Shown one piece after another: positions 17,671 through 21,590 of a stretch of DNA of 39,757 nt. Source of the stretch: Mogibacterium sp. (lineage in GTDB: Bacteria; Bacillota; Clostridia; Peptostreptococcales; Anaerovoracaceae); assembly GCA_017505405.1 (NCBI GenBank), contig JAFVPI010000061.1, positions 1 to 39,757 of the forward strand. The letters are read 5' to 3'. The translations under genes were made by a program, and so were the position numbers. The number at the start of each line of letters is the position of its first letter. Positions within the stretch are counted from its first letter, which is position 1. Under the pieces are notes generated by a model, which saw only the letters and a list, made by a program, of their open reading frames with translations, did not search any database and was not told the DNA's origin.

Positions 17671-18753
17671 ATGAAAGAAGATAAGGCAATAACTGCTGTC
17701 GGTGTCCTTGCAGTGATACTGGGCCTGCTCATGATGTCGACCGGAAGGTTCATCATGGGCGGGATCACTCTGCTGCTTGCTTTCGGAATATTCTGGAACC
17801 GCGGCGGGGGCACGCGCAATGACCGCAGCATTTATGAAAAGATCATAAAGACCGACATGAGCATAGCCGGGATCTATGAAAAAATCAGGGATCTTGACAC
17901 TCCTCTCGGCAAACCGTGGATAGCTGAGCACAAGGGCTTTGAAGGTGACAGCATAGTATTCGGACCGTGCAGTTTCAAGGACTGCGTGGTCATATCGCGC
18001 GGCAGAAACTGCATCGATGTAAAGCATGTCACGAGGCTTGAAAACATCATCAGAAAAGAAGAGGATGAGTACAGGTTTGAGAATCTTGTAAATACACAGG
18101 AGGCTGAAGTGACTCCTGAAAGATACGCTGTATTTGCCGGCTTCAAACTGGCTTCAGTGATGCTGGTAAGGCATCTGGCGGAGCTGATAGAAAAACTGGA
18201 TGCGGAAAGAGATGCGAAGGTGCCTGAGACCCTCGACTTTTATAAATTCTATTATCACAATTCAGTCGAGGGATACTTCAGGGATTCAGACGGCAATAAC
18301 GTGCTCAGGGTAGAGACTTCTCTGAAACCTTTTACGGCAAAAGTGTTCGATACGGATGGCAACGAAATGGCATCCGTGGTTCCGCATGCCTTTGACAACA
18401 AGGGCTATGCTTCTGAATCGGCGGGTTTTGAACTGCTCTCTGACGGTGAACATTTCGGAGAGATAAGAAGGTTCAAAGATTCCCGCGGCGAAGGCTTCGA
18501 GGCGGATACCGATGCCGGTGTTTTCCTGATCAGACTCTTTCCGTCATGCATGAAGGCAAGGATATCCTGCAACTACATGATAGAGCACGAGGGGAAGCTT
18601 AAAGCAGTCATCGGAGGGTCTCCGAACCTTATCTTTGATCAGCACGGAAGGTGCAGGAATGACATTGTCAATTCATATGACGATGATTATCTTGTGCTTT
18701 ACGCGATCGCTGAAATTTTCATATTGACGAACAACAGCAAGTTCCTTAAATAG
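17671..18753 (+). CDS. Conserved-looking membrane-anchored protein of unknown function
   Basis: 360 residues; I do not recognise the family. The N-terminus has two short hydrophobic segments (about 7-23 and 26-43), probably a membrane hairpin. The rest is soluble and mixed alpha/beta. The middle (about 50-190) includes DIHG-free segments such as WIAEHKGFEGDSIVFGP and a long charged helix near 165-185. The C-terminal half (about 200-345) reads as beta-strand-rich, with alternating patterns such as SLKPFTAKVFDTDGNEMASV that recall tubby-like/LURP-one barrels; this is a weak impression only. Codon use resembles the neighbours, and the ATG has AGGAGAT about 10 nt upstream. It lies 36 nt after pgcA and may be the last gene of that operon. 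Confidence 0.75.
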   Translation: MKEDKAITAVGVLAVILGLLMMSTGRFIMGGITLLLAFGIFWNRGGGTRNDRSIYEKIIKTDMSIAGIYEKIRDLDTPLGKPWIAEHKGFEGDSIVFGPCSFKDCVVISRGRNCIDVKHVTRLENIIRKEEDEYRFENLVNTQEAEVTPERYAVFAGFKLASVMLVRHLAELIEKLDAERDAKVPETLDFYKFYYHNSVEGYFRDSDGNNVLRVETSLKPFTAKVFDTDGNEMASVVPHAFDNKGYASESAGFELLSDGEHFGEIRRFKDSRGEGFEADTDAGVFLIRLFPSCMKARISCNYMIEHEGKLKAVIGGSPNLIFDQHGRCRNDIVNSYDDDYLVLYAIAEIFILTNNSKFLK

Positions 18754-19916: not shown

Positions 19917-19950
19917 ACATATGGATCAAAACAGACGGAGGGCTACAAAA

Positions 19951-20100
19951 ATGAAGAGAATCAAAACTATCACAACAAGAGATATGGCTGAGTCCAAGGT
20001 CACAGGCGGATGCGGTGAGTGCCAGACTTCGTGCCAGTCTGCAAGCAAGACTTCCTGCAGCGTTGCAAATCAGCATTGCGAGCAGCGCAAGGAAAAGTAA
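19951..20100 (+). CDS. scfA: SCIFF ranthipeptide precursor, five-cysteine variant
   Basis: 49 residues. The N-terminal half (MKRIKTITTRDMAESKV) is the leader, and GGCGECQTSCQSASKTSCSV plus ANQHCEQ the core. SCIFF stands for six cysteines in forty-five residues; this peptide has five (21, 24, 28, 36, 43). The position that is normally the fourth cysteine is Ser32 (codon AGC), and the residue after Cys36, normally Thr, is Ser37. The maturase gene lies immediately downstream. SCIFF peptides are nearly universal in Clostridia; the final product and role are unknown. The ATG at 19951 is set by GGAGGG at 19937-19942. The gene was found by reading the frame, as it is short. Confidence 0.93.
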   Translation: MKRIKTITTRDMAESKVTGGCGECQTSCQSASKTSCSVANQHCEQRKEK

Positions 20101-20110
20101 GATGCTTACG

Positions 20111-20145
20111 GCGGCGCTGCATGATGCAGCGCCGCTTTTTCTTTT
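20111..20145 (+). terminator. Intrinsic terminator/attenuator between SCIFF peptide and maturase
   Basis: A 12-bp perfect inverted repeat (20111-20122 with 20124-20135; the innermost pairs open to form the loop) followed by TTTTTCTTTT. It lies 10 nt after the peptide stop and 21 nt before the maturase ATG, so partial read-through would give much more peptide mRNA than enzyme mRNA. Confidence 0.85.
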
Positions 20146-20165: not shown

Positions 20166-21590
20166 ATGATACATAAATACAGATTAAACGGATTTAATAT
20201 GGTGGTAGATGCGGCCAGCGGCGCAGTACACTCTGTCGATGAGGTCGCCTATGATGCGATAGAAATGCTTGATGCAGAGATGCGCGGTTCTGACGTAGCT
20301 GCCGGATCAGTTTTCAGCAACAGTAAGATCATTGGAGAAATCGCATCAAAAATCGCGCAAAAGCACGGGATCACTGCAGAAGATGCAAATGAGACTCTGA
20401 GTGACATAGCTGAACTGCATGCCGGAGGTCTGCTCTGGTCGGAAGATCCTTTCGAGCAGGCTGCTGACGAGATCAAGATAAAGCAGTCAGTCCTGAAGGC
20501 GATATGCCTTCACGTTGCACATGGATGCAACATGGACTGTGAGTATTGTTTTGCCGGCAAGGGCGATTACAGCGGCAAGAGCGGCATCATGAGCGCTGAG
20601 GTCGGAAAGCGCGCCCTGGATTATCTGGTTGAGAATTCCGGTACGCGCAGGCATCTTGAGGTGGATTTCTTCGGAGGCGAGCCTCTCATAAACTGGGATG
20701 TATGCAAGGAGATAGTTGCATACGGAAGAGAGCTCGAGAAGAAGTACAACAAGATCTTCAATTTCACTCTTACAACCAACGGAGTGCTGATAGACGAAGA
20801 TGTCATAGACTTCACAAACCGCGAGATGGGCAATGTCGTACTCAGCATGGACGGCAGGCGCGAAACTCATGACAGGATGAGGCACAGCAAGACCGGAGGC
20901 GGCACCTACGACATGATAATGGATAATTTCAGGGCTCTGGTGGATTCGCGCCTTAAGAATGCTGAGAGATCGCCTGAATACTATATGCGCGGGACCTATA
21001 CCGCGTATAATAAGGATTTCGCTGCTGACGTGCTGGCCATGGCAGACCTTGGCTTCAGGGAGACTTCGATCGAGCCGGTAGTGTCAGATCCGGACGTCCC
21101 GTACGCCCTGCATGAAGAAGACCTGCCTCAGCTATATGAGGAGTATGAGAAGCTGGCGCTCGAAATGCTCGAGAGGGAGAAAAGAGGAGAAGGGTTCAGC
21201 TTCTACCACTATACGGTAGACCTGACAGGAGGTCCGTGCATATATAAGAGAGTCGCAGGATGCGGAGTCGCGACGGAATACCTTGCAGTAACGCCGACCG
21301 GAGATCTCTATCCATGCCACCAGTTTGTAGGTGATGATGACATGATAGTCGGCAACATATATGACGGGATCACACATCCGGAAACTGTTGACATATTCAG
21401 AAGCGGCAACAATATCTACACGCGTGACGACTGCAAAGACTGCTGGGCAAGGCTTTACTGCGCGGGCGGATGCGCTGCAAACAATTATCACTCAAACGGA
21501 GACATCAACAAGGTCTATCGCTTCGGCTGCAAGCTCCACAGAAAGCGCATTGAATGCGCTCTGATGATGGCGGCGGCACGTGAAAAATGA
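20166..21590 (+). CDS. scfB: SCIFF radical-SAM maturase (thioether-forming, SPASM domain)
   Basis: 474 residues. Residues 1-95 form the peptide-recognition (RRE-like) region, with FNMVVDAASGAVHSVDEVAYD. The radical-SAM domain has the cluster motif Cys121-x3-Cys125-x2-Cys128 (CNMDCEYC) and FFGGEPL at 168-174 for SAM binding. The C-terminal SPASM/twitch region holds cysteines 358, 366, 384, 423, 426, 432, 436 and 455, enough for two more Fe-S clusters. Enzymes of this family join cysteine sulfurs of the SCIFF core to carbon atoms of acceptor residues in the cytoplasm. All cluster ligands appear intact, although the peptide upstream is altered at the presumed cross-link site. AAGGGAG precedes the ATG. 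No dedicated exporter or protease gene is adjacent. Confidence 0.95.
   Translation: MIHKYRLNGFNMVVDAASGAVHSVDEVAYDAIEMLDAEMRGSDVAAGSVFSNSKIIGEIASKIAQKHGITAEDANETLSDIAELHAGGLLWSEDPFEQAADEIKIKQSVLKAICLHVAHGCNMDCEYCFAGKGDYSGKSGIMSAEVGKRALDYLVENSGTRRHLEVDFFGGEPLINWDVCKEIVAYGRELEKKYNKIFNFTLTTNGVLIDEDVIDFTNREMGNVVLSMDGRRETHDRMRHSKTGGGTYDMIMDNFRALVDSRLKNAERSPEYYMRGTYTAYNKDFAADVLAMADLGFRETSIEPVVSDPDVPYALHEEDLPQLYEEYEKLALEMLEREKRGEGFSFYHYTVDLTGGPCIYKRVAGCGVATEYLAVTPTGDLYPCHQFVGDDDMIVGNIYDGITHPETVDIFRSGNNIYTRDDCKDCWARLYCAGGCAANNYHSNGDINKVYRFGCKLHRKRIECALMMAAAREK

Follow-up and report, generated by a model that had tools for sequence, protein, structure and literature searches.

Analysis of a contig of 39,757 nucleotides from Mogibacterium sp., referred to as the window in its full length, revealed a SCIFF-family precursor peptide in which residue 32, the sulfur donor of the thioether in characterised members of the family, is a serine. 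The loss of this donor sulfur is certain for the clade to which the window belongs. We propose that the locus represents a five-cysteine variant of the SCIFF ranthipeptides, vertically inherited and fixed in one Anaerovoracaceae-like gut clade, whose maturase would still act on the peptide from another cysteine, a reading to which we give about an even chance.

Translation of positions 19951-20100 gave MKRIKTITTRDMAESKVTGGCGECQTSCQSASKTSCSVANQHCEQRKEK, with C21, C24, C28, S32, T34, C36, S37 and C43 as key residues, so that the cysteines number five (C21, C24, C28, C36 and C43); the precursor numbering matches the published CteA numbering at Cys21. In profile searches the peptide scored 76.3 bits against TIGR03973 (cut-off 50) and 74.4 bits against PF13165 (cut-off 27), and a SCIFF maturase starts 65 bases past its stop codon on the same strand. 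Both profile scores, the Shine-Dalgarno sequence and the recurrence of this peptide next to a maturase in numerous further assemblies establish the precursor as a real gene. The name SCIFF refers to six cysteines in about 45 residues, and with five cysteines only and Ser at position 32 the precursor was classed as a homologous five-cysteine variant rather than as a typical SCIFF. The sequence-only reading of this DNA had described five cysteines together with Ser32 and Ser37, which the translation bears out, both codons being AGC. A profile search of the source genome, a 2.31-Mb draft of 148 contigs, returned a single TIGR03973 match and hence no second, canonical SCIFF; as far as a draft assembly allows, relaxation through such a second copy was rejected on this ground. 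The coordinates of all features are compiled in Table 1.

Table 1. Features of the SCIFF locus in the window.
Feature	Position	Strand	Remark
Shine-Dalgarno sequence GGAGGG of the precursor gene	19937..19942	+	8 bases 5' of the ATG
SCIFF-family precursor peptide gene	19951..20100	+	49 aa, five cysteines, Ser32/Ser37
Codon 28, TGC (Cys)	20032..20034	+	Cys in 64/64 distinct Ser32 core DNAs; putative replacement donor
Codon 32, AGC (Ser)	20044..20046	+	donor Cys position in characterised SCIFFs
Codon 34, ACT (Thr)	20050..20052	+	acceptor as reported from an E. coli co-expression study
Codon 37, AGC (Ser)	20059..20061	+	Thr if canonical, Gly in the sister clade
Strong terminator-like hairpin, 12 bp followed by a T tail, in the gap between the two genes	20110..20136	+	
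SCIFF maturase, radical SAM/SPASM	20166..21590	+	474 aa; TIGR03974, CteB alignment
Maturase Val368	21267..21269	+	two residues past SPASM Cys366

According to two reviews (PMC8326336, PMC8172795), Tte1186a and CteA were linked from Cys32 to Thr37 in vitro, while co-expression in E. coli gave CteA with a link from Cys32 to the gamma carbon of Thr34, and the conflict between the two acceptors stands open there. A single thioether is reported even though six cysteines are conserved in SCIFFs. Compared with CteA of Clostridium thermocellum (thermocellin), its residues taken as described in these reviews, the window peptide belongs to the same family and carries Ser32 in place of the donor Cys32 and Ser37 in place of Thr37. 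Tte1186a of Caldanaerobacter subterraneus is likewise a SCIFF precursor, acted on by the radical SAM maturase Tte1186 (PMC8326336, PMC8172795), and its reported thioether joins two residues, Cys32 and Thr37, neither of which is present here. Because the reported bond uses the Cys32 sulfur, a thioether of the CteA/Tte1186a type should be unable to form in the window peptide. Ranthipeptides are characterised by a thioether that a radical SAM enzyme builds onto a carbon other than the alpha carbon, sactipeptides by one at the alpha carbon.

The substitution extends well beyond the window. Among 36 genomes of the host genus, including the source genome itself, 33 contained a precursor match, and all 33 peptides (one of them split across two contigs) carry Ser32, followed by Ser37 in 32 cases and Ala37 in one. 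This agrees with the sequence-only reading, which had argued against a read error and had named closest relatives uniformly endowed with six cysteines and Thr37 as the observation that would speak against its view, an expectation that these 33 peptides contradict. The relatives include Mogibacterium sp., uncultured Clostridiales, Candidatus Crickella, Baileyella and Alterileibacterium, many of them from goat or sheep intestine and several labelled Anaerovoracaceae in the tree output; Baileyella intestinalis (L089) and Alterileibacterium massiliense are named strains with the Ser32 form.

On a wider scale, TIGR03973 matches were found in 108/148 genomes of the host family, 138/148 of the order and 163/196 of a class sample. 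Peptides were taken from part of these matches, comprising the best-scoring loci and weak-scoring ones picked deliberately, and 80 extra class-level peptides were added in rank order, blind to residue state, yielding 60 Cys32/Thr37, 20 Cys32/Gly37 and zero Ser32 peptides. Across 325 distinct genomes, the residues at positions 32/36/37 were C/C/T in 199, C/C/G in 67, S/C/S in 56, S/S/S in two and S/C/A in one, and the combinations Cys32 with Ser37, Ser32 with Thr37 and Ser32 with Gly37 were absent from the peptides surveyed. Ser32 thus occurs in 59/325 genomes from 18 genera, all within the host family (f1), where 138 genomes divide into 59 with Ser32, 40 with Thr37 and 39 with Gly37, leaving Cys32 in 79; outside this family, all 187 genomes from 71 families have Cys32. 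The Gly37 type, which retains Cys32, spans 18 families, and Thr37 is missing from 126/325 genomes in total (67 Gly37 and 59 Ser32). Counted by rows, which include duplicates where a genome is present in two collections and from which two half peptides were excluded, position 32 is only ever Cys or Ser (201 Cys and 111 Ser in 312 rows; Cys in 80/80 of the class-level set), and the Ser32 codon is AGC or AGT in 111/111 rows, one base off TGC or TGT. Thr34 is present in 392/392 rows (312/312 and 80/80) and, like Cys21, Cys24 and Cys28, is unchanged in every complete row surveyed, while C21, C24, C28 and C43 are invariant across the Ser32 rows. Cys36 is replaced by Ser in two Ser32 loci, L094 and L096 (codons TCA and AGC), and is retained in all 266 Cys32 genomes.

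Two further observations concern gene copies. Tandem precursors with two leader-core units in one reading frame occur at L129, L293, L295 and L319, all of the Gly37 type and from four families. A single metagenome-assembled genome, present in two collections as G149 and RGIG2439, shows two separate Ser32 precursor-maturase loci (L188 and L194; L090 and L095), which may be two copies or a mixed bin.

These counts bear on the claim of the sequence-only reading that donor and acceptor had both been changed. The donor is indeed lost, while the statement on the acceptor depends on Thr37, and Thr34, the acceptor reported in E. coli, is kept throughout. They also bear on an alternative that we regard as unlikely, albeit worth weighing, namely that the Cys32-Thr thioether seen in vitro and in E. 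coli is only a partial or minor product and no essential feature of SCIFF peptides, that the cysteines serve in metal or Fe-S binding, in disulfides or in a tie to the maturase, and that the bond is dispensable. A dispensable bond would fit the report of one thioether despite six conserved cysteines, the acceptor varying between studies, the frequency of Gly37 and of Ser32 among the 325 genomes, and the retention of C21, C24, C28 and C43 in Ser32 rows; the constancy of Cys32 in every genome outside the host family argues that this residue matters there.

The order of the changes was addressed with a maturase tree of 87 rows (IQ-TREE). The Cys32/Thr37 rows lie on one side of a branch with support 100/99, the Gly37 rows form a clade (support 100/99) that is sister to the Ser32 rows, and the latter form a clade with support 93/88. 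On this tree, position 32 requires one change, position 36 two and position 37 three; the two Cys36 losses are separate, as the respective sisters of L094 and L096, namely L093 and L098, both retain Cys36. The other maturase trees likewise gave one change at position 32. The occurrence of Thr37 throughout the class makes a root among the Thr37 rows probable. The loss of Thr37 would then date back to the ancestor shared by the Gly37 and Ser32 clades, and Cys32 would have disappeared later, on the Ser32 stem alone. With the root placed in this way, Ser32 probably arose once, in a clade already without Thr37; the Gly37 genomes, which still have Cys32, likewise suggest that Thr37 went first. The view of Ser32 and Ser37 as simply one linked change is contradicted by these Gly37 genomes, and a paired compensating change was rejected as stated, given that Thr37 was probably gone earlier and the association amounts to one event on the tree. 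The sister clade thus resembles the window peptide in lacking Thr37 and differs from it in retaining Cys32 and with it six cysteines, as opposed to five. As a side observation, the Gly37 maturases form one clade despite coming from genomes of many families, a hint of horizontal transfer.

For selection analysis, pN/pS was determined from pairs sharing no rows, with maturase identity above 75% and redundant rows removed. The core gave 0.009 for Ser32 (25 pairs), 0.014 for Gly37 (10 pairs) and 0.005 for Thr37 (21 pairs), and the corresponding maturase values were 0.170, 0.181 and 0.151. Synonymous variation affects 21 of 22 codons in the set of 64 distinct Ser32 core DNAs, with the encoded residues mostly constant. 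Purifying selection acts on the Ser32 core as stringently as on the canonical core, and the low ratio together with the synonymous variation indicates that the variant is maintained and not decaying. The earlier suggestion of a system losing its link consequently stands for the Cys32 link and falls as far as decay is concerned. A sequencing error or a decaying pseudogene has virtually no chance of accounting for the pattern: one locus, L030 (with L105 alike), has an altered peptide tail and an interrupted maturase frame, as decay would produce, whereas 59 Ser32 genomes, the 64 distinct core DNAs and the core ratio of the clade led us to reject both explanations for the clade as a whole. L030 and L105 are probably the same genome in different collections, the maturase frame being broken in two, and either genuine loss of the system or misassembly may explain the damage.

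The maturase is correspondingly well preserved. The window protein scored 670.8 bits against TIGR03974 (cut-off 425) and 512 bits against CteB (PDB 5wgg; see also 5why), a homologue aligned over query residues 1-470 that shares the radical SAM/SPASM cysteines; for a putative N-terminal leader-binding (RRE) region, the alignment begins at residue 1. The CxxxCxxC motif and the SPASM domain are represented by C121, C125, C128, C358, C366, C384, C423, C426, C432, C436 and C455, in line with the sequence-only reading that all cluster cysteines are kept. Among 108 Ser32 maturase rows, the radical-SAM cysteines 121, 125 and 128 and the SPASM cysteines 358, 366 and 384 are present in all, Cys423, 426, 432 and 436 in 107 (one gap) and Cys455 in 102 (six gaps). 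The gene lies directly 3' of the precursor in 110/111 Ser32 rows, the remaining row stopping at a contig end. As a separate observation, precursor and maturase are distant or on separate contigs in two canonical genomes of one family (G038, G049).

Differences from CteB comprise Val368, Tyr347 and Tyr349, where the alignment shows Ser, Phe and Phe in CteB. Val368 occurs in 108/108 Ser32, 0/45 Gly37 and 2/120 Thr37 maturase rows (L308 and L321) and, at the thresholds used, is the single column that is invariant within the Ser32 clade and specific to it. The SPASM match starts at C366, and the stretch around C366 and Val368 presumably contributes ligands to the auxiliary cluster, which lies close to the active site. 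CteB is described as having an open site at its auxiliary cluster. This site reportedly bound Cys21 of CteA. Val368, beside the first SPASM cysteine, may represent an adjustment on the enzyme side. We do not claim it as proof of co-adaptation, because control clades of 20-110 rows have 0 to 7 clade-specific columns, which makes one column on the Ser32 stem ordinary, and two Thr37 maturases share the valine; Ser32 and Val368 fall on one stem, and an association that arose in one event carries no statistical proof. Tyr347 and Tyr349 are found in 45/45 Gly37 rows and in 102 and 106 of 108 Ser32 rows, respectively, whereas Phe is present at each of the two positions in 116/120 Thr37 rows, including L278, the Thr37 row adjoining the Gly37/Ser32 clade. 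As the Gly37 and Ser32 clades share Tyr and L278 has Phe, the exchange at 347 and 349 probably occurred on the branch on which Thr37 was lost. Val368 and the Tyr347/Tyr349 pair are each a single event at heart, and their relevance on the enzyme side is suggestive only. An extra cysteine, Cys180 (20703-20705), was also observed in 92/108 Ser32 maturase rows, against 3/45 Gly37 and 1/120 Thr37 rows.

A conserved maturase could do something other than cross-linking. In one version of this idea, which we hold to be quite improbable, it no longer cross-links and either oxidises Ser32 or another residue, for example serine to formylglycine in the manner of anSME, or serves as a peptide-binding partner only. 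The protein does match the anaerobic sulfatase maturase profile TIGR03942 (94 bits, below the cut-off of 349), and position 32 being only Cys or Ser would leave a hydroxyl that could be used; the core is almost wholly invariant, however, which renders a constant Ser32 unremarkable.

If the maturase is still a cross-linking enzyme, as we propose, it would bind the leader, abstract a hydrogen from the core and close a ring from another cysteine, with Cys28 as the best single guess for the replacement donor, because C21, C24, C28 and C43 are invariant in Ser32 rows, two of which do without Cys36. A serine at position 37 has no gamma carbon, and a gamma thioether at this position is impossible. 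For this reason, and because Thr34 never varied in the survey, Thr34 would be the best guess for the acceptor. Both Cys28 and Thr34 are also kept in canonical peptides, so that neither is marked out by its invariance. The sequence-only reading had offered Cys36 as a further candidate donor, and Cys36 reacting with Thr34 or Ser32 would have the merit of being the closest cysteine left to Thr34. This option is weakened by the two losses of Cys36 within the Ser32 clade, where the cluster cysteines of the maturase are intact, and by the lack of any such loss in the 266 Cys32 genomes; Cys36 cannot be the donor in all members, and we consider it a very unlikely one. Even less credit is given to the Ser32 oxygen replacing the Cys32 sulfur in a Ser-O-Thr ether. 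The ring geometry would be unaltered, Thr34 is kept, and radical SAM enzymes are known to form ether cross-links, as described for darobactin (PMC9055067); on the other hand, the literature consulted gave no precedent for an ether in ranthipeptides, and a hydroxyl would be a poor ligand for an auxiliary cluster proposed to bind cysteine.

Another point of comparison is the ranthipeptide freyrasin (PapA/PapB), in which Cys-X3-Asp links are described (PMC9413430). The window maturase is distantly homologous to PapB (266 bits against NF047865, below the cut-off of 340), and Cys28-X3-Ser32 has the spacing of the freyrasin links as described (PMC9413430), but the window core differs in having no Asp or Glu at the X3 spacing after Cys28.

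In the intergenic region, the hairpin has a z value of -3.66, and sites of this kind number two in 2 kb against 1.3 expected. Such hairpins are found at 90/110 Ser32, 57/120 Thr37 and 17/47 Gly37 loci, compared to 1-3% of shuffles (2% of mononucleotide shuffles for the Ser32 baseline), and the hairpin possibly sets the ratio of peptide to enzyme. The genes flanking the pair in common with close relatives encode a phosphoglucomutase, a 360-aa protein, a Usp protein, Ham1, BrkB and a diacylglycerol-kinase-like protein. Of these, the 360-aa protein (17671-18753) has no Pfam match and lies beside the Usp-domain protein upstream of the SCIFF pair, a position kept in close relatives. None of the flanking genes was present in the available flanks, some of them short, of the deeper Ser32 loci L093, L094, L096 and L098, on which basis a dedicated extra modification gene in the flanks was rejected, the precursor-maturase pair alone being seen throughout.

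In the PMC full-text literature searched, we found no description of the Ser32/five-cysteine clade or of the Gly37 clade, and the four core peptide strings did not occur in the full texts searched. A study on pig isolates states that all its SCIFF-like precursors carry the six-cysteine motif (PMC7738495); Baileyella intestinalis, described in the same paper, has five cysteines (L089), and may or may not be among the strains counted there. All clear ScfA homologues have been stated to appear functionally equivalent (PMC5300114), and the Ser32 clade is a reason to test this equivalence.

SCIFF precursors are widespread in the class, and the reviews consulted leave their function and true acceptor open. 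The present data amount to a partial natural mutagenesis, with one clade without Thr37, one without both Cys32 and Thr37, and two lineages of the latter also without Cys36, all with conserved maturases. For the lineages with Cys32, these natural variants point to Thr34 rather than Thr37 as the native acceptor, because Thr37 is missing in so many genomes and Thr34 in no row; this favours Thr34 and is no proof, since the Ser32 clade keeps Thr34 without having the donor and the core is near-invariant throughout. That Thr34 is the native SCIFF acceptor and, in addition, that the Ser32 clade makes a ranthipeptide-like product of new topology or chemistry, be it through a thioether that joins Thr34 to Cys28 or to a different N-terminal cysteine, or through reaction of Ser32 itself (ether or formylglycine), is a combination we put forward as tentative and somewhat doubtful. 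In the Ser32 clade the staple is probably made differently or is less important than thought, and the role of the Cys32 bond can be tested in the named Ser32 strains Baileyella intestinalis and Alterileibacterium massiliense.
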